A stretch of 64,000 bases of DNA from contig NZ_FTMG01000011.1 of the NCBI RefSeq assembly GCF_900155965.1, positions 124,001-188,000 on the forward strand, read 5' to 3'. Source of the DNA: Mucilaginibacter lappiensis. GTDB taxonomy: Bacteria > Bacteroidota > Bacteroidia > Sphingobacteriales > Sphingobacteriaceae. The notes beneath the pieces were generated by a model, which saw only the letters and a list, made by a program, of their open reading frames with translations, made no database searches and was not told the DNA's origin. Below, in pieces: positions 30,924-59,805 of the stretch (the first letter of the stretch is position 1; the number at the start of each line of letters is the position of its first letter). Position numbers and translations under genes: made by a program.

Positions 30924-31011
30924 GTCATCTCGAACGAGGTACGAGGAGAGATCTTTTACAATTGGCTTATACCACGTATAAGATTTCTCCTCGTACCTCG
31001 TTCGAAATGAC
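30924..31011. repeat. REP-like inverted repeat, GTCATTTCGA type
   Basis: Starts GTCATCTCGAACGAGGTACG and ends CTCGTTCGAAATGAC, with internal GAGATCTTTTAC / GTATAAGATTTC. It is the same type as 17482-17600 but with a more perfect stem. Confidence 0.88.
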
Positions 31012-31049
31012 ATAAAGGAATTGCCTCTCCCCAATTTTTTTCCCGTCAA

Positions 31050-31335
31050 AAAAATCCGTATATTTGTATATACCACGGCCCGGTTATCCGATCAAAAAGG
31101 ATAACCGGGCTGTTTTATTAAAGGAAAAAAGGGAACAAAAACCAACCGTTTGGTATGTTTTATTTGACAATCAATAAATTAATACTTTTTAAAGTTTTTA
31201 AAACACGCTAAAACCGCGTTAAAATTTGTTAAAAAGTGTTAAAATGGGGTATTTTGAATCAATTTTTGACTGTTTTTACCCTGCTTTTGAACAGAAAAGT
31301 GTTAAAATTTAAGGTTTAAAAAGTTTTTACGAGAC
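31050..31335 (+). other. Structured dispersed noncoding element, copy A
   Basis: The 538-base gap 30910-31447 contains, after the REP-like unit, an element that is homologous to the reverse complement of 39145-39450. In order: -7-like box TATATTTG (31059-31066); TATACCAC; a 12-bp stem GCCCGGTTATCC / GGATAACCGGGC (31078-31089, 31099-31110); GCTGTTT.GTTAAAGGAA-like block; AAAAACCAACCGTTT; TTGACAATCAAT; TTAATACTTTTTAA; phased GTTAAAA boxes; and CAGAAAAGTGTTAAAAT before GGTTTAAAAAGT. In copy B the stem has different bases but the same pairing. It may encode a small RNA or act as a leader or regulatory region for the glycosyltransferase gene that starts at 31448. Confidence 0.75.
31207..31244 (+). 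promoter_or_regulatory. Phased (G)TTAAAA boxes, copy A
   Basis: GCTAAAA at 31207 and GTTAAAA at 31218, 31228 and 31238 are spaced 11, 10 and 10 bases; another lies at 31301 (63 bases on, six helical turns). Copy B has the same boxes with spacings of 11, 11, 10 and 52. Such phasing puts them on one face of the DNA and would also bend it. Confidence 0.7.
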
Positions 31336-31419
31336 TGATTGAAATTGAATTGTTAAAAAGCGGGTCGCCGAATATTCAGCAAAAACAAAACGGGTTTTTA
31401 GGACTGACCGGTATTTAGG

Positions 31420-31429
31420 TTCGGCCGAA
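31420..31429. promoter_or_regulatory. 10-bp palindrome TTCGGCCGAA next to the GT4 promoter
   Basis: The perfect palindrome TTCGGCCGAA sits six bases upstream of the -7 box of the glycosyltransferase gene. It might be an operator; no copy is seen at the other promoters. Confidence 0.35.
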
Positions 31430-31435
31430 TAAATG

Positions 31436-31443
31436 TATTTTTG
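31436..31443 (+). promoter_or_regulatory. -7 box of the GT4 gene
   Basis: TATTTTTG, exact TAnnTTTG, ends 4 bases before ATG 31448 and makes the in-frame ATG at 31433 impossible as a start on this transcript. The mRNA would be leaderless. Confidence 0.68.
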
Positions 31444-31447
31444 GAGC

Positions 31448-32731
31448 ATGTTAAAAGTAGTGCATTTGAACACCTATGATGGCAATGGCGGCGCGGGTCG
31501 GGCCTGTATGCGCCTTAACCGGGCATTGCTCAGTCAAAATGTCGATTCAAAGGTCATCGTTCACTATAAGTTTGGGAAAAACCCGCAGATAGGCACTTTT
31601 AACACCAATCCTTTACAGAAAGCCTATACTGCCGCTACCATTGTTCTGGAACGAATACTGGCCAAAAGGTACCTGACACCTTTATCGCGCACCCCTTTTT
31701 CATTTACCTGGTTCGGACGGTCGGTTATCCGCCATCCCGAGGTGAAAAATGCCGATATTATACACCTGCATTGGGTAAATCACGGTTTCCTGGATCCGAA
31801 ACATATAGCCGAGATAGCCAAACTGAACAAACCCGTGATATGGACCTTTCATGACAGTAATGCCTTTACCGGCGGCTGCCATGTACGCTATGCTTGTGAC
31901 CATTATATGCGGGAATGCGGTAATTGTCCGCTGCTGATTCATACCGGGGATAACGATATATCACACCAAATATGGCAGCAAAAGCATAAGGCATATGATA
32001 TGCTCAACTTTACCATTGCCGCTCCAAGTACCTGGATGAAGGCATCGATAAAAAACAGCAGTTTGATGCAGGGTAAGGCGGTAAACCATATCCCCAATAC
32101 TCTGGAAACCGATATTTTTAAACCCGCTGATAAAAAACAGGCCAAACAAAAAGCCGGACTACCTGCGGATAAGTTTATTTTCCTGAGTGGATTTATGCCG
32201 TCCCGAAAAGACTTGCATAAGGGAACCCAATACTTACTGGATAGCCTGGAACTGCTAAAACAGCGTTTAGGCGCAGATGCAAACAAAGTAGAGCTGGTGA
32301 TATTTGGAAACCGCGGAACAGAAGGTGTGCCCGATTTCCCTTTCAAAACCAGTTTTTTAGGTACTATCAATAATGATGAACAACTGGCCCAATACTATGC
32401 TGCTGCCGATGCTTTCCTGATTCCATCACTGGAGGATAATCTGCCTTATACGGTAATGGAGAGCCTGTCCTGCGGAACGCCTGTAATAGCCTTTACAACA
32501 GGTGGCATACCAGATATGGTACGGCATGAACACAACGGCTACCTGGCCGCTTATAAGTCGGCAGAGAGCTTTACAGATGGTATGGAATGGATCATTAAGC
32601 ATCCTGATCAGGAGCTGATACAACAACAGGCTAGGCAAACGATCATGGATACTTTTTCAGAAAAAGTTATTGCTCAAAAGCATATCAGCCTTTATGAAAG
32701 CCTGCTAAAAAAGGAGGGTGCTGATGTTTGA
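31448..32731 (+). CDS. Glycosyltransferase family 4 (GT-B fold)
   Basis: A 427-residue retaining glycosyltransferase. The N-terminus MLKVVHLNTYDGNGGAGRAC is the acceptor-side Gly-rich loop; the donor site is in FLSGFMPSRKDLHKGTQYLL and SLEDNLPYTVMESLSCGTPV, the EX7E motif with the nucleotide-sugar contacts; HDSNAFTGGCHVRYACDHYM followed by ECGNCP is a Cys-containing segment typical of WcaC/colanic-type members. It overlaps the next glycosyltransferase gene by 8 bases, so both are translated together. Confidence 0.92.
   Translation: MLKVVHLNTYDGNGGAGRACMRLNRALLSQNVDSKVIVHYKFGKNPQIGTFNTNPLQKAYTAATIVLERILAKRYLTPLSRTPFSFTWFGRSVIRHPEVKNADIIHLHWVNHGFLDPKHIAEIAKLNKPVIWTFHDSNAFTGGCHVRYACDHYMRECGNCPLLIHTGDNDISHQIWQQKHKAYDMLNFTIAAPSTWMKASIKNSSLMQGKAVNHIPNTLETDIFKPADKKQAKQKAGLPADKFIFLSGFMPSRKDLHKGTQYLLDSLELLKQRLGADANKVELVIFGNRGTEGVPDFPFKTSFLGTINNDEQLAQYYAAADAFLIPSLEDNLPYTVMESLSCGTPVIAFTTGGIPDMVRHEHNGYLAAYKSAESFTDGMEWIIKHPDQELIQQQARQTIMDTFSEKVIAQKHISLYESLLKKEGADV
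32711..32718 (+). promoter_or_regulatory. Strong Shine-Dalgarno sequence before the second glycosyltransferase
   Basis: AAGGAGGG lies 5 bases before the ATG at 32724, inside the end of the preceding gene. Such a match to the anti-SD is rare in Bacteroidota and in this window; it decides for ATG 32724 over GTG 32718. Confidence 0.6.
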
Positions 32732-33476
32732 GCCTAAGTTAAGCGTGATCACCATTGTCTATAATAATGTACGTGATATTGAGCGTACTATGCTTTCGGT
32801 TTTAGGGCAAACGTATTCTCCTATCGAATATATTATAGTCGATGGCTTATCAACTGATGGTACGCTGGAGGTGATTAATACATACCAGGATCGCATCAGT
32901 AAATTGATCAGCGAAAAGGATAAGGGCATCTATGACGCCATGAACAAAGGTTTGGCTGTAGCTACAGGTGATTATGTGATCTTTATGAACTCTGGCGACG
33001 AATTTTATGACAAAGATACCGTAGCAGCAGTTTTTGCCTCGGCTGATGAGGCCGACATCTATTATGGCGAAACAGAGATGATAGATGATAACAGCCAAAG
33101 TTTGGGGCAACGCCGCCATCGGGCTCCAGCTACATTTACCTGGCGTAGTTTTAAATATGGTATGAGCATTAGTCACCAGGCTATATATATCAGGCGAAGT
33201 TTAACAGAACCTTACGATAACATGTATCAGCTCAGCGCCGATATCGACTGGATCATCCGAGCCGCCAAAAAGACTAAAAAAATAGTGAATGTGAACAGGT
33301 ACGTAGCCAGATACCTGGTAGGAGGAATGTCGAAAAAAAGGCACCGCCAAAGCCTGCAGGAGCGTTTTAATATTATGAAACGATACTACGGATTGATCCC
33401 GACTGTATTCTATCATTTTGTAATAGCCTTTAACCTGGGCTGGTATTGGCTCAAAAATAAACGTACTAACGACTAG
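32724..33476 (+). CDS. Glycosyltransferase family 2
   Basis: A 250-residue GT-A transferase of the WcaA type. Motifs: KLSVITIVYNNVRDIERTML at the N-terminus, EYIIVDGLSTDGT, DKGIYDAMNKGLAVATGDYV and the DXD-equivalent FMNSGDEFYDKDT. After the fold comes SHQAIYIRRS and a basic C-terminus. It starts within the end of the GT4 gene and ends before a terminator, so the pair forms a two-gene operon under the promoter at 31436. Confidence 0.92.
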   Translation: MFEPKLSVITIVYNNVRDIERTMLSVLGQTYSPIEYIIVDGLSTDGTLEVINTYQDRISKLISEKDKGIYDAMNKGLAVATGDYVIFMNSGDEFYDKDTVAAVFASADEADIYYGETEMIDDNSQSLGQRRHRAPATFTWRSFKYGMSISHQAIYIRRSLTEPYDNMYQLSADIDWIIRAAKKTKKIVNVNRYVARYLVGGMSKKRHRQSLQERFNIMKRYYGLIPTVFYHFVIAFNLGWYWLKNKRTND

Positions 33477-33498
33477 CGGCCTTTTGAGATATAAAAAA

Positions 33499-33522
33499 AG
33501 CGATGGATCTGAACCCATCGCT
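33499..33522 (-). terminator. Terminator between the glycosyltransferase operon and yfhO-like gene
   Basis: AGCGATGG / CCATCGCT with an 8-base loop. On the minus strand the T-run is perfect (TTTTTTT), serving the yfhO-like gene; on the plus strand the T-run is weak (CTTC). Confidence 0.82.
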
Positions 33523-33543
33523 CTTCATTAATATAGTTGAGCC

Positions 33544-36048
33544 TTATGCTTTTTTGGCGGCAGGCTTAACTGCAGGTTTCTTTTTGGTTTCGGTGTAAAT
33601 TGCACCACCAAGGGCCAGCACCAACAGGATAGATCCAGCTAAAGAGATATTTTCACCGGCATAATAGGATGTTGGGTGGAATATGAATTCGATCTTGTGG
33701 TTACCAACCGGTATCTGCGCAGCACGTAAAAGGTAATCAGCACGGAAGTATGGTTTTTCAACCCCGTCGATCAGCATTTTCCATCCTTTATTATAATACA
33801 CTTCAGAGAAAACAGCGATTTGTGAGGCGGTTGAACCACTTTGGTATATCATATGATCAGGATTGTAACTCACCAGGTCTATTTTGCCGGCAGGATCGGT
33901 CCCTAATGTTTTTTCGTCAATATCGCTTTTGTACTGCTTATCAACGATGGCTTCGTCTTTAGGGGAAAAACTGCTGATTGCCTGCATTTCCTGGTCGGCA
34001 TTTTCAGCGTATTTGATGCTTTTTATAAACCAGGCATGTCCGCAAGCTGTTGGATTTACCTGCATACCTAAGTTTTGCGTTTTTTGGTCTTGTGTAATAA
34101 TGTATTTGGTATTTAGCATATCCAAAACATCCTGGTTAATGCTTTTGGAGAATTGATTATCTATAAGCTCATCGAATCTTTTTAATCGAGCTGCAGAATA
34201 TCCGCTTATTGATTTATGAAAAAACGGATTAAATAAATCATATTTAATACTGGCGCTTACGTCAAATACGCGATAGTCAGGATCTTTATCTTTCATTATA
34301 AATTGGTCAACCTCACGAGGTTTAACCGCCTGATCGGCCTCAATTTTATCCTGAAAATTCTCATTCTTCAAATAACGCCGGTCTACCTGCCACATATCAA
34401 CCAATGTTAAGGCAAGTAAGGCAACCGAAAGCGTAACTATATTTATTTTCTGTTTGATAAATGCCCATACAATACCAAATGTTAATAACACAAATATTAA
34501 TGAGCGTATAGCATCTGCACGTGCCAAAGATACCCTGTCTTTAATAATGGCATTAGCCACATCATTAGCTAATGCAGCATTACTCTTGAACGCTTGCGTA
34601 AGATAGTTTATTCCAGCAGCTTGATCTTCGGCTCTAAAGCTTAGAATAAGATCGGGTAACACAGCAAATAACAGGGTAAGCCCACCAACTATGTAAAGAG
34701 AGAGCATCAATTTTTTAAGTATAGGGTTTCTGTCTTTGGTATCAATAATTTCCTGAACTGCCAAGAATGCCAGTATCGGGAAACATATACTGGCCACAGC
34801 CAATATAGATTCCACCGCACGGAACTTATTGTATAAGGGGAAATAGTTGAAAAAGATATCAGATAGAAATGGCATGTTGCGACCAAAGGACAATAACATG
34901 GTTAATACCACAGTAGCTAACAACCACCATTTTAAACGGTTTTTAACTGTCAGTAGGCCAAATAAGAATAAAAAGCAAACTACGGCACCAAAATAATATG
35001 GGCCGGCCGTACCCGGTTTGTTACCCCAATAGGTTGTCATGCCCGGTACCGATGAGGTAATCTGTTGTGTATAATTAACTGCTTGCTCCTGGGGAATACC
35101 ATTTGTCATCAACACTTTAGCAGTTTCTGAGTTTTGATCTAATGGCTCCGTACTTGGAGAGGCACCGCCATATATATTCGGGATCAGGAAAGTAAAAGAT
35201 TCACCCACCCCCTGGCTCCATTGATAAGCATAATCTTTTGCAAGGCCATTGCTGGGCTCTTTGGAGGTTTGGGTAAGGTTTGATTTTCCGCGTATGGTTT
35301 CTTTACCAAAGTCGTAAGTACTCCATAAACTGGATGCGTTCACAGCCAATGCAAGCAAGGTTGCACCCCCTATGTAAGCCAATGACTTTAAGAAGGGCTG
35401 CGTGTTTTTTGTTTTAATTGCATGATACAATTCAATTCCCACTAATATGATCAGCGATAGCAACAAATAATAAGTCATTTGTACGTGGTTAGCTCTGATC
35501 TCCATAGCCAGGAAAAATGCCGTTAGCGCACCACCTAATATGTGTTTTCCTCTTAGTGTTAGGATAATACCACCTAATATGGGGGCAAAAAATGCAATAG
35601 CAAAGGCCTGGTTTGAGTGCCCTGCAACGAGTAGGATGATATTGTATGATGAAAATGTAAATGCAACTGCACCAGCAGCAGCAAGCCACGGGTTTAATTT
35701 AAGTACAATAAACAAAAAGTAGGTACCTAATAAAAGCAATAATACAGTATCAACAGGATTAGGAAATGTGACTTTTAGTGCTGTTACAATATGTGTAGTA
35801 ATGTTGTCAGGATATGGTGCCCATATTTGAAATGCAGGCATACCACCAAATATCTGGTTTGTCCAAAGTATAGTTGTATCCTTTGCCCGGTAATCCATTA
35901 TTTCTTTTTGAGTGGATTGGGCTCCAAGAACATCGCTTTGGCCTAATGTTTTACCCTGGAAGGCGGGTGTAAGGAAAAAAAAGCATATAGCTACAAAAAT
36001 TGCAATAACGGCCAGATGAGTACCATTACGTTTAAACCAGTTGTTCAT
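33544..36048 (-). CDS. YfhO-family membrane protein (GT-C-like)
   Basis: An 834-residue polytopic membrane protein. About 12-13 helices in the first 560 residues (AVIAIFVAICFFFLTPAFQG first), then a periplasmic domain, then a last helix (ISLAGSILLVLALGGAIYTE) and a Lys/Ala/Pro tail. The segment ILWTNQIFGGMPAFQIWAPY is typical of Bacteroidota YfhO. YfhO in Firmicutes is needed for glycosylation of teichoic acids, and the fold resembles lipid-linked-sugar glycosyltransferases, so a role in decorating surface glycans is plausible, fitting the polysaccharide genes next to it. Confidence 0.88.
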   Translation of the reverse strand: MNNWFKRNGTHLAVIAIFVAICFFFLTPAFQGKTLGQSDVLGAQSTQKEIMDYRAKDTTILWTNQIFGGMPAFQIWAPYPDNITTHIVTALKVTFPNPVDTVLLLLLGTYFLFIVLKLNPWLAAAGAVAFTFSSYNIILLVAGHSNQAFAIAFFAPILGGIILTLRGKHILGGALTAFFLAMEIRANHVQMTYYLLLSLIILVGIELYHAIKTKNTQPFLKSLAYIGGATLLALAVNASSLWSTYDFGKETIRGKSNLTQTSKEPSNGLAKDYAYQWSQGVGESFTFLIPNIYGGASPSTEPLDQNSETAKVLMTNGIPQEQAVNYTQQITSSVPGMTTYWGNKPGTAGPYYFGAVVCFLFLFGLLTVKNRLKWWLLATVVLTMLLSFGRNMPFLSDIFFNYFPLYNKFRAVESILAVASICFPILAFLAVQEIIDTKDRNPILKKLMLSLYIVGGLTLLFAVLPDLILSFRAEDQAAGINYLTQAFKSNAALANDVANAIIKDRVSLARADAIRSLIFVLLTFGIVWAFIKQKINIVTLSVALLALTLVDMWQVDRRYLKNENFQDKIEADQAVKPREVDQFIMKDKDPDYRVFDVSASIKYDLFNPFFHKSISGYSAARLKRFDELIDNQFSKSINQDVLDMLNTKYIITQDQKTQNLGMQVNPTACGHAWFIKSIKYAENADQEMQAISSFSPKDEAIVDKQYKSDIDEKTLGTDPAGKIDLVSYNPDHMIYQSGSTASQIAVFSEVYYNKGWKMLIDGVEKPYFRADYLLRAAQIPVGNHKIEFIFHPTSYYAGENISLAGSILLVLALGGAIYTETKKKPAVKPAAKKA

Positions 36049-36116
36049 TTAAGTTTTTTGAAATGGATAATATATATTCCTCAAAAATAGAAATTTGAAT
36101 GACAATTGAGTTACAT

Positions 36117-36239
36117 AATTCGGATTTCGGATGTTCGATTTCGGATTTGGGAAAATTTGCTGATTTTGAAAATTAAAAAAGTAGGATTTGGTACAGCTTC
36201 AAACTAAATCCGAAATCGAACATCCGAATTCCGAAATTA
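36117..36239. repeat. Iterated-word inverted repeat (TTTCGGATTT family)
   Basis: Arm 36117-36150 is TTCGGATTTCGGATGTTCGA followed by TTTCGGATTTGGG; arm 36206-36239 is AAATCCGAAATCGAACATCC followed by GAATTCCGAAATT; about 25 of 30 bases pair. On the minus strand the upstream gene (36244-36540) ends 5-8 bases before the arm, so the repeat follows a stop codon. Confidence 0.88.
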
Positions 36240-36243
36240 AAAA

Positions 36244-36540
36244 TTAGCAGGTAAGCTCGCGACTACGTAGCAGGATAAACAACAATATCATACCTGCAAG
36301 GCTCACGACATAGGCTATCACCTGGGGTTTGCCATAATCTTCCCTGTATTTGCGTATGCTGAAAAAGTTATATAAGGCAAGGGCACCTAAAACCACCCAA
36401 AAGAATGTGCCTATCTTGGCGCAGGTAGCAAATAGCTGCAGCGCAACTGTAAATACAATGTAATTGGCCACAATGAGTATAACAGACTCGGAGGTATTGT
36501 TATGGTTTGGGCGTCTTTTGTATACTTCTTCTGGCAGCAT
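36244..36540 (-). CDS. Small membrane protein of unknown function
   Basis: 98 residues with three predicted helices (VILIVANYIVFTVALQLFAT, GTFFWVVLGALALYNFFSI, VIAYVVSLAGMILLFILLR). The gene starts 5 bases after the DUF4834 gene and is co-transcribed with it. I do not recognise the family; similar small proteins accompany DUF4834 in relatives, as far as I can judge from memory. Confidence 0.78.
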   Translation of the reverse strand: MLPEEVYKRRPNHNNTSESVILIVANYIVFTVALQLFATCAKIGTFFWVVLGALALYNFFSIRKYREDYGKPQVIAYVVSLAGMILLFILLRSRELTC

Positions 36541-36545
36541 AGGGT

Positions 36546-36794
36546 TTATTTCACTTCTTCATAATCAACAAACTCGCCTTCAGAATCAGGCACGGTACCC
36601 CTTTTCCCCTGTGGGATATAATCAACCTTGATAGCACCATCTGGACGTCTGGTGGATTGACGTTGCTGCTGCTGAGCTTGTTGCTGGGCCTTATTCACCA
36701 CGCTTTCAAAAAGGAAAGGTAGCAGATATCGTACTAAACTGCGTATGATATATAGTATACAAATTGATATGAGTAGAAAACGAATTAAAAGCAT
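36546..36794 (-). CDS. DUF4834 family protein
   Basis: 82 residues: one N-terminal membrane helix (IRFLLISICILYIIRSLVRY), then a Gln-rich stretch (KAQQQAQQQQRQSTRR) and a conserved C-terminal tail (DYIPQGKRGTVPDSEGEFVD). Single-pass membrane protein with a cytoplasmic tail, found in Bacteroidota. Function unknown. ATG at 36794 is preferred over the GTG one codon upstream. Confidence 0.88.
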   Translation of the reverse strand: MLLIRFLLISICILYIIRSLVRYLLPFLFESVVNKAQQQAQQQQRQSTRRPDGAIKVDYIPQGKRGTVPDSEGEFVDYEEVK

Positions 36795-36860
36795 CACATT
36801 AATTTTTAGCTTACAAATATAAGTTATATAACGTAAAAATTGTTTTAATATGATTGAAGA

Positions 36861-36949
36861 TAGATGTACAGATGTGCGGATTACGGATGTGCGGATGAAA
36901 AATCTACTTTTGTATGATACTCATTTGCTATCTGTAATCTGCACATCTA
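36861..36949. repeat. Iterated-word inverted repeat (GATGTGCGGATTACG family)
   Basis: Arm 1 repeats GATGTACAGATGTGCGGATT and ACGGATGTGCGGATG; arm 2 (36929-36949) is GCTATCTGTAATCTGCACAT. Arm 2 contains the uvrB stop codon (minus-strand TAG ATGTGCAGATTACAGATAG). Only one repeat of this word is seen in the window. Confidence 0.75.
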
Positions 36950-38971
36950 AAACTTCTCTTCCATCATTTTTTCTAAGGCAAACATCTCATCGCGCAGTTT
37001 GGCGGCCTGTAAAAAGTCCATATCCTTGGCCGCTGCGAGCATGTCTTTTTTAGTATTGTCAATTGATTTTTTCAGATCGGCCTTGGTCATGTACTGCACT
37101 ATCGGATCGGCAGCCAGTGATATGGAATCAGCTTCCACATAAGCTTTTTGTACACCACCCTGAAAGTCGACCACAGAGGTTTGCTCCATGATCTCTTCGC
37201 GCGTTTTACCAACCGTGGTTGGCGTTATGCCGTGTGTTGTATTGTAGGCTATCTGTATATCGCGGCGGCGATTGGTCTCATCCATTGTAATCTGCATAGA
37301 ATCGGTGATCTTGTCGGCATACATGATCACCCGGCCGCGATCGTTACGGGCGGCACGACCAATAGTTTGTATCAGCGAGCGCTCAGAACGCAGGAACCCT
37401 TCCTTATCGGCATCCAGAATGGCTACCAGGGATACTTCCGGCAGATCAAGCCCTTCGCGCAATAAGTTGATACCGATCAATACATCAAACTCACCCAGTC
37501 GTAAGCCTCTTAATATCTCTACCCTTTGCAGGGTTTTTACTTCGGAATGGATGTAACGGCATTTGATACCCAGGCGGTCCATATACTTAGCCAATTCCTC
37601 GGCCATACGTTTGGTGAGGGTGGTTACGAGAATACGGTCACCCATTTTGATGGTCTTATCTACCTCATCCAGCAGATCGTCAACCTGGTTGATCACCGGG
37701 CGAACTTCAATAACGGGGTCAAGTAAGCCGGTAGGGCGTATCACCTGCTGCACTACCACGCCTTCAGATTTCTCCAGTTCAAAATCGCCGGGGGTAGCAC
37801 TTACATAAATGGTTTGCGGAGCCAGTTTCTCAAACTCCTGAAAATTTAGCGGACGGTTATCCATAGCAGCCGGCAGCCGGAAACCATAATCGACCAATGA
37901 TATTTTACGTGACCGGTCTCCACCATACATGGCCCTGATCTGCGGAACGGTTACGTGACTTTCGTCAATCACCATCAGATAATCATCCGGGAAATAATCT
38001 AGCAGGCAGAAGGGGCGCGCCCCAGGCTGCCGTCCGTCAAAAAAGCGCGAATAGTTCTCGATGCCCGAGCAATAGCCCAGTTCGCGTATCATTTCCAGAT
38101 CATAGTTAACCCGCTCTTCCAGGCGCTTGGCCTCCAGGAAACGGCCATCATCAATAAACTGCTTTTTACGGGTTTCCAGCTCTTCCTGTATAGCCCAGAT
38201 AGATTGGGTAAAACGCTCCCGTGGCGCAACGTACAGGTTTGCCGGATACACGACCATATGGGTCATTTTTTCAACGGTCTTTCCCGTAGTGACATCAAAA
38301 GTGCTGAGCTCTTCAATGTCATCCCCGAAAAAGGATATGCGGTAAGCATAATCCAGGTAGGCCGGGAAAATATCAACCGTATCACCCTTTACCCGGAAAG
38401 TACCGCGCTTAAAATCGGCAGTAGTGCGGGCATAAAGTATCTCTACCAGGCGGTGTAAAAAAGCATTGCGACTAATACGCGTACCTACTGCGAACTTGAA
38501 AACAGAGTCGGCAAAGTCATCCGGGTTACCCATACCATAGATGCAGGATATAGATGATACCACGATAACATCCCTGCGACCCGACATTAGGGCCGAAGTA
38601 GTGCGCAAACGTAATTTCTCTATCTCCTCGTTTATTTGCAGGTCTTTTTCAATATAGGTGTTGGTGGTGGGTATAAACGCTTCGGGCTGATAATAATCAT
38701 AGTACGACACAAAGTAGTTTACCGCGTTTTCCGGGAAAAACTGCTTAAACTCGCCGTACAGCTGTGCTGCCAGTGTTTTATTGTGGCTCAGTATCAGCGT
38801 AGGCTTTTGCGTTTGCTGTATCACATTGGCAATAGAAAATGTTTTACCCGATCCGGTAACACCTAGCAAGGTTTGAAAAGGATCGCCATTATTTACACCT
38901 TCCACCAGTTGACGGATAGCTTCGGGCTGATCGCCGGTGGGGAAGTATTGGGAGGTTAAATTAAAATCCAT
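36947..38971 (-). CDS. uvrB: Excinuclease ABC subunit B
   Basis: Damage-recognition helicase-like subunit of nucleotide excision repair. 674 residues, normal length. Walker A LLGVTGSGKT (35-44), the beta-hairpin YYDYYQPEAFIPTTNTYIEK, DYFPDDYLMVIDESHVT (motif II), YVSATPGD, motif V/VI LREGLDLPEVSL and QTIGRAARN, and a C-terminal UVR domain (DMDFLQAAKLRDEMFALEKM). Its long upstream region (38972-39635) contains the structured element copy B in the same orientation. Confidence 0.98.
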   Translation of the reverse strand: MDFNLTSQYFPTGDQPEAIRQLVEGVNNGDPFQTLLGVTGSGKTFSIANVIQQTQKPTLILSHNKTLAAQLYGEFKQFFPENAVNYFVSYYDYYQPEAFIPTTNTYIEKDLQINEEIEKLRLRTTSALMSGRRDVIVVSSISCIYGMGNPDDFADSVFKFAVGTRISRNAFLHRLVEILYARTTADFKRGTFRVKGDTVDIFPAYLDYAYRISFFGDDIEELSTFDVTTGKTVEKMTHMVVYPANLYVAPRERFTQSIWAIQEELETRKKQFIDDGRFLEAKRLEERVNYDLEMIRELGYCSGIENYSRFFDGRQPGARPFCLLDYFPDDYLMVIDESHVTVPQIRAMYGGDRSRKISLVDYGFRLPAAMDNRPLNFQEFEKLAPQTIYVSATPGDFELEKSEGVVVQQVIRPTGLLDPVIEVRPVINQVDDLLDEVDKTIKMGDRILVTTLTKRMAEELAKYMDRLGIKCRYIHSEVKTLQRVEILRGLRLGEFDVLIGINLLREGLDLPEVSLVAILDADKEGFLRSERSLIQTIGRAARNDRGRVIMYADKITDSMQITMDETNRRRDIQIAYNTTHGITPTTVGKTREEIMEQTSVVDFQGGVQKAYVEADSISLAADPIVQYMTKADLKKSIDNTKKDMLAAAKDMDFLQAAKLRDEMFALEKMMEEKF

Positions 38972-39060
38972 GTTGTTATGTAAAAATACAAATATTCCTG
39001 CAATAGGTTTTGCAATTCAAAATAAGTGCAGGATAATGACAACCTTATGTCAGCAGGATT

Positions 39061-39088
39061 TGAGTGTGTCGAAAAATCTTCACACTCA
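39061..39088. other. Hairpin in the uvrB upstream region
   Basis: TGAGTGTG / CACACTCA with a 12-base loop, between the structured element and the uvrB start. No T-run follows on either strand; role unknown. Confidence 0.4.
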
Positions 39089-39144
39089 TCCGGATTAATT
39101 TTTCACCAACTTTTTACCCCACAAAAACGAAACTTACAAAATTC

Positions 39145-39450
39145 AAACCGGGCATCCTCTTCGGGGTACTTTTTAAACCTTTATTTTAACACTTTTCTGC
39201 TCAAAAACGATATAAAAAGGTGTGCTTATTACCCGGTTTAACTAAATTTTAACGCCATTTTAACACTTTTTAACAAATTTTTGATGGGTTTTGAAAAAGT
39301 TAAAAAGTATTAAATAATTGATTGTTAAATAACTATATACAAAACGGTTGGTTTTTGGCTTGTTTTGTTCCTTTAACCAAACAGCCCTGCTTACAATTTT
39401 CAAAGTAAGCAGGGCTGGCCTGTGGTATACTTAAAGATACAAAAAATAGT
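39145..39450 (-). other. Structured dispersed noncoding element, copy B
   Basis: Read on the minus strand: near -7 box TATCTTTA, TATACCAC, stem AGCCCTGCTTAC / GTAAGCAGGGCT (plus coordinates 39383-39394 and 39405-39416), GCTGTTTGGTTAAAGGAACA, AAAAACCAACCGTTTTGTAT, TTAACAATCAAT, TTAATACTTTTTAA, phased GTTAAAA boxes, GAGCAGAAAAGTGTTAAAAT and AGGTTTAAAAAGTACC. Block order and spacing match copy A (31050-31335). It lies between the MarR gene and uvrB, pointing at uvrB. The rest of the 663-base gap holds a REP-like unit, a hairpin and nothing else I recognise. Confidence 0.75.
39237..39274 (-). promoter_or_regulatory. Phased GTTAAAA boxes, copy B
   Basis: On the minus strand the G of each GTTAAA(A) is at 39274, 39264, 39253 and 39242, i.e. 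10, 11 and 11 bases apart, with a further GTTAAAAT at 39190 (52 bases, five turns). This parallels copy A at 31207-31301. Confidence 0.7.
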
Positions 39451-39493
39451 TGGGATGTGCAAGGGGATGAACCGGAACTACTCTTAGTTTTTT

Positions 39494-39571
39494 GTCATCC
39501 TGAGCGATAGCGAAGGATCTTCTTCGGCATGCCTGGCGCACAATAGATGCTTCACTGTCGTTCAGCATGAC
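39494..39571. repeat. REP-like inverted repeat, GTCATCCTGAG type
   Basis: GTCATCCTGAGCGATAGCGA at one end and CACTGTCGTTCAGCATGAC at the other; same type as 688-763 and 1966-2043. Confidence 0.88.
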
Positions 39572-39635
39572 AAATTCCCACCCTCTTTCCGCCCCGGGCG
39601 AAGCGCAGACGGGGTGAGTCGTCTGCGTAATCCAA

Positions 39636-57065: not shown

Positions 57066-58202
57066 ATGAAAACAGCTTTAATAACGGGTATAACAGGTCA
57101 GGATGGGGCGTATCTCGCCGAATTCTTACTGAAAAAGGGCTATGCTGTTCATGGTGTAAAACGACGTTCGTCATTATTTAATACCGATCGAATTGACCAC
57201 CTATATCATGACCCGCATGAACCCAATGTAAAGTTTAAGCTGCATTACGGCGATTTAACCGATTCTACCAACCTCATCAGGCTGGTGCAGGAAGTTCAGC
57301 CCGATGAAATATATAACCTGGCCGCGCAAAGCCACGTAAAAGTGAGCTTTGATACACCTGAATATACAGCCAACGCCGATGGTATTGGTACCCTGCGCGT
57401 CCTGGAAGCTGTACGGTTGTTAGGTCTTACCCAAAAAACACGGATATACCAGGCCTCCACATCCGAGCTTTATGGCTTGGTACAGGCTGTTCCTCAAAGT
57501 GAAACTACGCCATTTTATCCACGGTCACCGTATGCGGTAGCTAAGCTATATGGCTACTGGATCATTGTAAATTATCGCGAAGCATATAATATGTATGCCT
57601 GTAACGGTATTTTGTTTAATCATGAAAGCCCAATCCGCGGCGAAACTTTTGTTACCCGTAAAATTACCCGTGCCGCGGCAAAAATAGCCTTAGGTTTGCA
57701 AGATTGCCTGTATGTTGGTAATCTTTCGGCCCAACGCGACTGGGGCCATGCTAAAGACTATATTGAAGCCATGTGGCTAATGCTGCAGCAAGAAAAGGCC
57801 GAGGATTTTGTAATAGCTACCGGTGTTACTACCACCGTTCGTGATTTTATAAAGATGACTTTCAATGAATTAGGCATCGAGGTGGAGTTTAGCGGTAAGG
57901 ATGAGCACGAGCGTGGCGTGATTATTGATATCGATGAACAAAAGGCGAAAGAGCTTGGCTTAAATATAGATGCCCTTAAGTTTGGGCAAACCGTAGTAAA
58001 AGTGGATGCTAAATATTTTAGACCAACAGAGGTTGAACTGTTAATTGGAGATGCTACAAAGGCTTTTGAAAAATTAGGGTGGAAACCTAAATATGACCTT
58101 CAGGCCCTGGTTACCGATATGATATTATCAGATCTGCACCTGGTTAAAAAGGATGATTATCTGAAAAAAGGCGGTTTTAAAACGCTTAATTATTTTGAAT
58201 AA
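57066..58202 (+). CDS. gmd: GDP-mannose 4,6-dehydratase
   Basis: Converts GDP-mannose to GDP-4-keto-6-deoxymannose, the precursor of GDP-fucose, GDP-rhamnose and related sugars. 378 residues, SDR fold: NAD(P) loop [20 protein letters not shown], catalytic T/S-Y-K set in STSELYG and [15 protein letters not shown], and the substrate region [20 protein letters not shown]. Provides donor sugars for the glycosyltransferases at 26-33 kb. No fcl (GDP-fucose synthase) gene is in the window. The next gene begins 16 bases after its stop. Confidence 0.97.
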
Positions 58203-58218
58203 AACTTATCAATTCTGC

Positions 58219-59805
58219 ATGAAGAAAATATTTACCTGTGTTATACTATTATTTTTAATAAGCGGGGTTGTAAAAGCGCAATCAGTATACCAACCATACT
58301 CATATCAGTTTTATCAGAAACTGGATGCTGACGTTTATTCTACACAAACGCGGGTGCATAGCTCGTTAAAGCCATTTTTTGTTGATGATTCACTTGTAAA
58401 GCATCATTACGATTCCTTAATGAATTTGAACGAGCTTAAAGGAAAGTTTTTTACCCAGCATCAGATTGATGTGAAGGGGAAGGGCTATACTTTTTATACC
58501 GATCTTTTGCCCGATTTTAATCTGAGCAGGGATTTCTCCAATAAAAAGAATACCAACTCGGGTTCGCTTGGGTTGCAGGTTGGGGGTACCGTTGGTAGCA
58601 AATTGTCTTATAACGTTAGCGCTTATGAAAATAGGGCCGTACTGCCTGATTACCTGGCTACTTATACCAACCAGGTAGGTATAGCTCCCGGGCAGGCCTA
58701 TGCCGGTATCTATGGCAATGAATATCGTTGGTCGTACATTACTGCATTGGTATCATATACACCCAATAAATATTTGAATATAACCGCAGGGCGCGATAAA
58801 ACTTTTATTGGTGATGGTTACCGCTCTGAACTGTTATCTGATTATGCTTCACCGTATCCGTTCATTAAGCTAACCGCCACTCTTGGTAACGTAAGGTATA
58901 TGGCGATGTGGGCCTATTTTAATGATCCGCTATCGGTTAAAGTGGATGGCGGCGATCGTAAAAAGTATGGTGTATTTCATTACCTGGATTGGAATGTAAG
59001 TAACCGGCTTTCATTTGGCTTTTTTGATGCGGTTATCTGGCCTGCTAAGGACGACCTTGGTCATGAACGTGGTTTTGATTTTACTTACATCAATCCTGTT
59101 ATATTCTTACGGCCTGTTGAGGCAACAAACGGCTCGCCAGATAATGCTTTGATCGGGTTAACGGGTAAATATAAACTTACCGACGGCGTTACAGTATATG
59201 GTCAGTTTGCGCTTGACGAGTTTGAGTCAAAGAATTTTTTCTCCAGCAATGGTAGTTCCCGTAATAAATATGGATGGCAGCTTGGACTTAGAGGTGCAAA
59301 CCTGTTTAATGTCAGTGGATTAAATTATTTGCTGGAAACCAATAACGTAAAGCCATATACCTACTCAGAACGTAGCTCCATAGTTAACTATTCTGAAAAT
59401 GGCGAGCCTTTAGCGCATCCATGGGGTGCAAACTTTCGTGAAGTGGTTGGTTTGTTGAATTACTCCTATAAAAGATTTGATTTTTCCGGTGAGCTTGATT
59501 ATGGACACTATGGCTTGGATATGAATAATCTTAATTTTGGTAAGGATATCTTCCAACAATATGTTGACCCGGCAAGGGCATTTGGCAACTATACGGGCCA
59601 GGGCTTAACAACCAATATGGTTTACTTGGAGGGTAAGGTAGCTTATTTGCTAAACCCTAAATATAACCTGCGTTTTGAATTGGGTGGGCTTTATCGTTCT
59701 GAAAAGAACAGCCAGTTTCATGACAAAACAGGCATGATCACCTTAGGCTTACGCAGCTCGTTCCGCGCTATTTACAATGATATAGCAAGTTATAAAACGC
59801 ACTAA
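58219..59805 (+). CDS. Outer-membrane beta-barrel protein, RemB-like
   Basis: 528 residues with a signal peptide (KIFTCVILLFLISGVVKAQS). The N-terminal segment SVYQPYSYQFYQKLDADVYS is followed by many amphipathic strand blocks (GSLGLQVGGTVGSKLSYNVS, YLNITAGRDKTFIGDGYRSE, GVFHYLDWNVSNRLSFGFFD). The pattern matches the RemB/capsule-assembly Wzi-like barrel proteins of Bacteroidota, where RemB is linked to gliding motility. No other gliding gene is in the window, so polysaccharide attachment is equally possible; the neighbour gmd supports that. ATG at 58219 gives the signal peptide; 58195 is less likely. Confidence 0.72.
   Translation: MKKIFTCVILLFLISGVVKAQSVYQPYSYQFYQKLDADVYSTQTRVHSSLKPFFVDDSLVKHHYDSLMNLNELKGKFFTQHQIDVKGKGYTFYTDLLPDFNLSRDFSNKKNTNSGSLGLQVGGTVGSKLSYNVSAYENRAVLPDYLATYTNQVGIAPGQAYAGIYGNEYRWSYITALVSYTPNKYLNITAGRDKTFIGDGYRSELLSDYASPYPFIKLTATLGNVRYMAMWAYFNDPLSVKVDGGDRKKYGVFHYLDWNVSNRLSFGFFDAVIWPAKDDLGHERGFDFTYINPVIFLRPVEATNGSPDNALIGLTGKYKLTDGVTVYGQFALDEFESKNFFSSNGSSRNKYGWQLGLRGANLFNVSGLNYLLETNNVKPYTYSERSSIVNYSENGEPLAHPWGANFREVVGLLNYSYKRFDFSGELDYGHYGLDMNNLNFGKDIFQQYVDPARAFGNYTGQGLTTNMVYLEGKVAYLLNPKYNLRFELGGLYRSEKNSQFHDKTGMITLGLRSSFRAIYNDIASYKTH

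Follow-up and report, generated by a model that had tools for sequence, protein, structure and literature searches.

We analysed a 64,000-nucleotide stretch of the genome of Mucilaginibacter lappiensis (NCBI RefSeq assembly GCF_900155965.1, contig NZ_FTMG01000011.1, positions 124,001 to 188,000), hereafter called the window. It holds two inverted copies, A and B, of a non-coding element, and these belong to a family that is larger than first noted, with about a hundred intergenic copies scattered over the genome. Within one unit of this family we observed both selection on RNA pairing and selection on DNA helical phase. We propose that the element is dispersed between genes and consists of two modules at a near-fixed distance. 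Module P would comprise a Bacteroidetes-type promoter box and a hairpin, which mostly follows 11 nt later and folds in RNA of the promoter's strand. After a further 74 bp or so would come module C, a strongly bent stretch of about 140 bp that has a phased interior and carries the inverted repeats M1 and M2 at its ends. Our preferred explanation, for which we put the probability at about 0.5, is that the element is a once-mobile and now vertically inherited unit at the borders of transcription units, which combines a promoter and a terminator-like RNA hairpin with a protein-binding module of bent DNA.

The two inverted copies, their common blocks in the same order and their two differing yet paired stems had been described in an original prediction made from the letters of the window, and all of them are present in the sequence. 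The location given there was right and the limits slightly wide, as the sequence profile gives 31055-31327 (+) and 39444-39168 (-). The sequences AAAAACCAACCGTTT and GTTAAAAAGTGTTAAAAT each occur exactly twice in the window. The parts of both copies are listed below; alignment A4 contains 40 sequences (37 of 44 plus three copies of module C alone) and alignment A5 contains 42 of 44. Copy L193 was skipped.

31055..31327, + strand: copy A, whole element (module P, linker and module C); match to profile R1, model positions 3-275, nhmmer 4.9e-76
31059..31066, + strand: -7-type promoter box of copy A, TATATTTG, read from the sequence; the -33 position is TTT, not TTG
31076..31112, + strand: covarying hairpin of copy A, from sequence and covariation analysis
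31184..31194, + strand: inverted repeat M1 of copy A, ACTTTTTAAAG, from sequence and alignment A4
31195..31314, + strand: spacer of copy A with phased A/T-tracts, 120 bp, from the phasing and curvature analyses
31315..31324, + strand: inverted repeat M2 of copy A, TTTAAAAAGT, from sequence and alignment A4; its right end is sharp
39168..39444, - strand: copy B, whole element; match to profile R1 at C27:163168-163444, nhmmer 3e-56
39432..39439, - strand: -7-type box TATCTTTA of copy B, read from the sequence
39382..39417, - strand: hairpin of copy B, with a stem sequence unlike that of copy A, read from the sequence
39298..39308, - strand: M1 of copy B (ACTTTTTAAC), from the sequence
39168..39177, - strand: M2 of copy B (TTTAAAAAGT), from the sequence

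Directly to the left of copies A and B (30925-31015 and 39470-39575) we also observed inverted-repeat sequences, CGAACGAGGTACGAGGAGA... and ...AGGATGACAAA. Similar short repeats recur in the left flanks of many of the fetched copies and look like a separate family of the repetitive extragenic palindrome (REP) type.

Copy number and distribution

With copy A as a DNA query we found 40 places at E <= 4.7e-51 and five weak echoes in the M. lappiensis genome (best 40 of 183 candidates), a similarity far greater than chance would give. Profile R1, which was built from 31 copies, matched the same genome 146 times at E <= 1 (best 150 of 5386 candidates), with copy A ranking 8th and copy B 82nd. At least 111 of the 146 matches span the whole element (a hand count of the rows covering model positions <=14 to >=272), about ten are partial, and the rest are weak and mostly reverse-strand echoes. 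The possibility, raised in advance, that no copies exist beyond the locus of A and B is thus refuted.

Across the genus, 8 of 149 genomes showed R1 matches at E <= 1e-8 (best 12 candidates per genome). Counting at E <= 1e-6 (best 150 candidates per genome) we detected at least 109 matches in G022 (SG564), at least 111 in G083 and at least 129 in G155 (OK268). Lower counts were found in G061 (at least 25), G098 (at least 11), G116 (at least 7) and G077 (at least 1), and these are possibly underestimates because the copies of those genomes have diverged. A profile of module C matched strongly in seven of the R1 carriers, G077 being the exception, and in eight more genomes only near background (E >= 4.8e-6). 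Copy L010 had no match in collections of plasmids and phages. The Rfam scan of the window at the gathering score gave none either, and permissive scans of L010 and copy B returned only matches under gathering. We found no description of the family in the literature searched or in Rfam, and this result is limited to that scope.

The promoter and gene-context profiles below are based on 113 distinct full-length copies, 37 of them from the M. lappiensis genome, which remained from 148 matches (137 full-length) after duplicates of the same copy were removed. Copies of G061, G098 and G116 are referred to as far, as opposed to the near copies; for the count of wobble pairs L094 was added to the far set.

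Promoter box and hairpin of module P

The box TAT[A/C]TTT is near-invariant in the 113 copies, with a freer fourth base, and it precedes the hairpin in all of them (at most two mismatches), in agreement with the -7-like box that had been noted at the start of copies A and B. At the -33 distance we observed an enrichment of TTG (T 71%, T 66%, G 43%). A strict -33/-7 promoter, according to what we take to be the Bacteroidetes consensus, was found in 36 of the 113 copies, compared to a mean of 6.6 and a maximum of 10 when the upstream letters were shuffled. From these promoter-like boxes a Bacteroidetes-type promoter is predicted in module P. The distance from box to stem was 11-12 nt in 84/120 near and 19/26 far copies.

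The hairpin is under base-pair selection. In the alignment of 31 copies, 8 of the 11 doubly changed pairs and 42 of the 45 double-change cells fall in this 14-bp hairpin, and the three other pairs each derive from one sequence alone. When near and far copies were aligned together (46 rows), pairing held in 93.8% of the hairpin cells compared to 83.1% in shuffles, 11 of the 14 pairs have changed on both sides, and there are 69 double-change cells compared to 18.3. None of 500 shuffles attained the pairing or the double-change values, and sliding the columns by 1-3 positions lowered every measure. Stem pairing is thus maintained across the copies, as had been anticipated from copies A and B. Among the transition intermediates we counted 114 G-U and 60 C-A cells on the promoter strand (p 5e-5; 91 and 40 in the near copies). 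Given this G-U excess and the pairing statistics, the hairpin is therefore selected and, for the near genomes at least, it appears to act as RNA transcribed from the promoter side. Its length ranges from 29 to 38 across the copies, and it ends in a GUUUNGUUAA tail.

A free scan of all column pairs (143 of 150 copies) ranked the hairpin pairs at the top and detected no nested helix besides them. The other strong signals were mostly short-range, at positions 197-218, and reflect sequence subtypes. The earlier view of the whole 300 bp or so as one structured RNA thus holds for the helix of the 5' hairpin only, and a long structured RNA is unlikely because further helices are lacking. Two candidates for such helices were rejected. 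A second hairpin in the linker (CCAACCGTTTGG-like) is plausible by eye and is missing from the top covarying pairs, and pairing of M1 with M2 as an RNA helix was dropped on account of G098, where M1 is altered while M2 is unaltered.

Spacing, phasing and predicted curvature of module C

The inverted repeats M1 and M2 flank about 120 bp, in which eleven A/T-tracts follow each other in steps of 10-11 bp. The power of these tracts at 10.5 bp was 7.05 in the near copies compared to 0.58 with shuffled runs (n=122), and 6.24 compared to 0.64 in the far copies (n=24). Such phasing of A/T-tracts with the helical repeat is a feature of intrinsically curved DNA. In the far copies the strand of a tract is free, i.e. 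a tract can be either A or T. The spacer between M1 and M2 measured 120 bp in 89/122 near copies and 119-122 bp in 122/122, and 118-120 bp in 22/24 far copies. From the hairpin end to M1 we measured 73-75 bp in 117/121 near and 71-75 bp in 23/27 far copies. The set for spacing and phasing leaves out L094, L185 and copies without a recognisable M1 or M2, and strongly altered copies are missed because only full-length copies enter. The identity between near and far copies at common sites was only 0.55 in the linker and T-tract stretch. The right half of the element is conserved less as sequence than as tracts, and the conservation that had been ascribed to RNA in this 3' half is one of DNA geometry, with a fixed spacing and A/T-tracts in phase with the helix.

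In a wedge model the ratio of end-to-end to contour length was 0.667 for the near copies (0.882 when shuffled) and 0.673 for the far copies (0.889), and this model predicts a strong bend for the DNA module that forms the right half. When 142-bp segments of the 64 kb were ranked by curvature, the first five, with starts at 31111-31151, all fell on copy A, over its linker and most of its spacer. Copy B is ninth in this ranking, and a coding stretch near 58,081 ranks between the two copies. That next most curved stretch, 58071-58232, is the junction of two open reading frames (ORFs) and has no match to the element. Self-complementarity of module C was 0.447 compared to 0.308 shuffled in the near copies, mainly via the ends; for the inner part we obtained 0.344 compared to 0.301 (near) and 0.290 compared to 0.292 (far).

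Related modules beyond the main clade

Diverged copies were identified with a covariance model (R3) of module P. Those of G072 retain the P hairpin, M1 and M2, with a gap of 113-114 between M1 and M2 in 4/4 copies. Their interior differs and is rich in GG and TTTGG, and its GG and A3/T3 runs are phased at 11 bp (2 of 300 stricter run-shuffles reach the observed value). We also searched 149 genomes for a pattern of the module ends only, where one place may count on both strands, and used the reversed pattern as a control (10 control matches overall). The pattern matched in 23 genomes, seven of which are the main carriers; G072, G077, G117, G156 and G020 had counts of three or more, G128 had two, and ten genomes had one, which is chance level. 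Six ends-only modules outside the clade (gaps 112-115) showed a power of 4.51 at 10.5 bp compared to 0.59 (0/300 shuffles) and nine other matches showed no phasing, a split that was made after viewing, with L347 (gap 112) put with the others and L334 being the sole match of its genome. Considering the ends-only modules and the G072 copies, the architecture therefore extends somewhat beyond the family defined by sequence.

A hairpin of ordinary appearance directly precedes M1 in G077 and G156. For L336 (G077) and L349 (G156) this is a CAACCC...GGGTTG hairpin immediately before the module of M1, phased interior and M2, a sister arrangement (L349-L351 were placed in G156, G020 and G164 by row order). 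In the M. lappiensis genome L299, a copy of module C alone, comes after an ordinary-looking terminator.

Genomic context

Coding overlap of more than 25 bp was found for only 2/113 copies (L136, L097). The genes on either side were oriented +/+ in 51, -/+ in 29, -/- in 13 and +/- in 13 cases, compared to 142 (+/+), 103 (-/-), 58 (+/-) and 54 (-/+) for the other neighbour pairs in the same loci. The right-hand genes are diverse and presumably include alaS, thrS, valS, ffh, glgB, mnmE, murB, htpG and uvrB, as named from their N-termini. The right-hand neighbours of copies A and B carry the names given by the original prediction:

31433..32731, + strand: right-hand ORF of copy A, named as a glycosyltransferase
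36947..38971, - strand: right-hand ORF of copy B, named as uvrB

In SG564 the copy L148 stands before an ORF whose N-terminus equals that of the uvrB ORF of copy B.

The context bears on the line taken in the original prediction, in which the copies would encode a noncoding RNA of about 270 nt, present many times over, or else a 5' leader that controls the right-hand gene. The promoter and the RNA-strand hairpin would suit this reading, and the right-hand gene is directed away from the element (+) in 83/111 cases, at a median distance of 113 bp. The right flank alone is kept in 36 cross-species copy pairs compared to 3 for the left (the pairs are non-independent, and one left-only pair is a weak 327-bp match). 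In the intervals between element and right-hand gene a strict -33/-7 promoter was found in 0/63 (63 of the 83 intervals, 60-260 bp long). However, a -7 box occurs in 18 of the same 63 intervals compared to 4.1 when shuffled (maximum 7). The claim that the element points at a gene of the same orientation is right for copies A and B but fails for 28/111 right-hand genes, which face the element (-), and 26 of these 28 end at most 30 bp from it. A leader role also fits poorly for the 13/106 copies between converging genes and for right-hand genes of such diverse kinds, and fixed spacing without structure would be odd for an RNA whose covariation is confined to the 5' hairpin. We regard this reading as unlikely.

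Evolutionary history

Copies keep their gene neighbourhoods across species. Both flanks are shared by 47 cross-species copy pairs, with one G083 locus counted twice (L095, L198). Mean element identity at common sites was 0.78-0.85 within the near group, individual values to the far genomes were 0.57-0.73, and paralogs within the M. lappiensis genome had a mean identity of 0.77. These data would fit a single burst in a common ancestor, after which the copies descended vertically. Concerted evolution was considered and set aside, as the identities are equally explained by one burst and later unequal divergence.

For the region upstream of ffh we fetched 30 loci and inspected 16. The element is present in 4/16 relatives (M. 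lappiensis included) and absent in 12/16; several of the loci without it carry a plain terminator there, and the sister clade is without the element. At the place of the element in carriers, G020 has an AT-rich stretch (L219) with T-tracts phased by eye; it is a single copy, and a second repeat family at this site was rejected. Insertion is indicated by the last codons (K-T-F-stop) of two right-hand neighbours (L108, L027), which come from the right end of the element and lie inside it.

The same observations bear on the improbable reading that a mobile element once multiplied in a burst and left the copies behind as decaying relics, now functionless, whose resemblance is due to common descent only. 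The restriction of the sequence family to a few species, the gene ends provided by the element and identities compatible with one burst before the species split would all agree with it. However, the length of the spacer is constant while the sequence drifts, double changes restore the pairing of the stem, the phase is maintained where the interior differs, and full-length matches far outnumber the partial ones in the M. lappiensis genome. Neutral decay thus seems unlikely in view of the near-constant length.

It is similarly improbable that the modules are the recognition ends of a transposition system acting in trans and that the geometry is a requirement of the transposase: module C does carry inverted repeats (AAAACTTTTTAAAG / CTTTAAAAAGTTTT), three of the four copies of module C alone in SG564 begin near M1, and sites without the element exist, but there is no consistent target duplication (no offset is common to more than 6/148 copies), and copies at old common sites are no less canonical than the rest, a state that transposition by itself would not preserve. 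The inverted repeats lie at the ends of module C and not at the ends of the whole unit of P and C. Two split copies, L295 (C34:140200-146000) and L296 (C22:83000-85800) of the M. lappiensis genome, are interrupted near M1 by insertions of 3.6 kb and 0.46 kb, and their breaks carry short apparent duplications. They were considered as a parent element between P and C and rejected, as they look like later insertions.

Proposed model and points against it

According to our preferred explanation of a once-mobile border unit, module P would most likely give rise to a short hairpin RNA and serve as an insulator or a terminator of low strength. Module C would most likely be held at M1 and M2 by a protein that is dimeric or wraps DNA (HU-like, gyrase or other). 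At the borders of transcription units, the element would stop transcription coming from the left and may offer the nucleoid an architectural or topological site beside the right-hand gene. Transposition would have dispersed it in the ancestor of one Mucilaginibacter clade, with vertical inheritance from then on.

Several observations weigh against this model. The -33 signal is unclear in the far copies, and the wobble bias is absent from them (23 G-U and 20 C-A cells). The tail of the hairpin averages only 5.3 T in 8, other terminators appear stronger-tailed by eye, and the copies between converging genes also count against the model. Between 2.6% (near) and 4.6% (far) of the shuffles were equally bent, and the curvature model uses assumed wedge parameters. 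SG564 retains P alone at site L014 and C alone at site L026, the latter being empty in G061 and G098, and some pattern matches outside the near and far sets are about 10 bp shorter (132 compared to 140-142 bp), which is close to one helical turn. The geometry is therefore not absolute.

A more specific version of the model is less probable. The element might constitute a new class of chromosome-architecture element: a DNA wrap or mini-loop of fixed length, in which two inverted protein sites stand about 12 helical turns apart and phased tracts of free sequence produce the bend. It would keep a fixed phase to a hairpin RNA made from the promoter, and would be present in about a hundred copies at transcription-unit borders and recognised by a putative nucleoid protein of the Bacteroidota.

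Comparison with known elements

Compared by their descriptions, the nearest analogues would be the Correia elements of Neisseria, with a likeness in plan, and the bacterial interspersed mosaic elements (BIMEs) of E. coli. Correia repeat enclosed elements are described as intergenic, with more than 120 copies, promoters, inverted repeats and a site for the bending protein IHF, and one of them drives uvrB (PMC10969869). The Mucilaginibacter element likewise has a promoter (predicted), bending (predicted), inverted repeats and a copy before uvrB. It differs in that the bending would be via phased tracts and not a single IHF site, and in its covarying promoter-proximal hairpin, its near-fixed geometry of hairpin and repeats and the lack of a detected target duplication.

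REP sequences and BIMEs of enterobacteria are also high-copy extragenic palindromes, for which functions in supercoiling, termination and mRNA stabilisation have been proposed. In contrast, our element is a 276-bp unit with a promoter box, about 140 bp of DNA predicted to be bent and one hairpin per unit; alternating palindrome arrays were not found in the 31 aligned copies. Miniature inverted-repeat transposable elements (PMC10969869) are similar in being short, non-coding and repeated, with inverted ends that are here found on one module, and different in that we detected no target duplication and observed long vertical retention at near-constant length. For the Mucilaginibacter family no parent element is known, and no systematic search for one was made. 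Intrinsic terminators of Mucilaginibacter share the hairpin, the frequent position soon after a stop codon and the T-containing tail, and at ffh the element occupies the position that a plain terminator has in several relatives; it differs in its weaker tail and the promoter box upstream. The outer stem AGCCCGG is largely element-specific, as 71 of 77 terminator-like GCCCGG hairpins lie inside elements.

It would be unusual for a single repeated unit to be under selection both for base pairing of its RNA and for the helical phase of its DNA. Mucilaginibacter is a soil bacterium, and the DNA-bending and DNA-organising proteins of the Bacteroidota are poorly known; a high-copy bent site of near-fixed geometry would therefore be a good bait for such proteins. 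Because several related genomes each carry about a hundred copies and other species have empty orthologous sites, the effects of the element on neighbouring genes would be directly testable.

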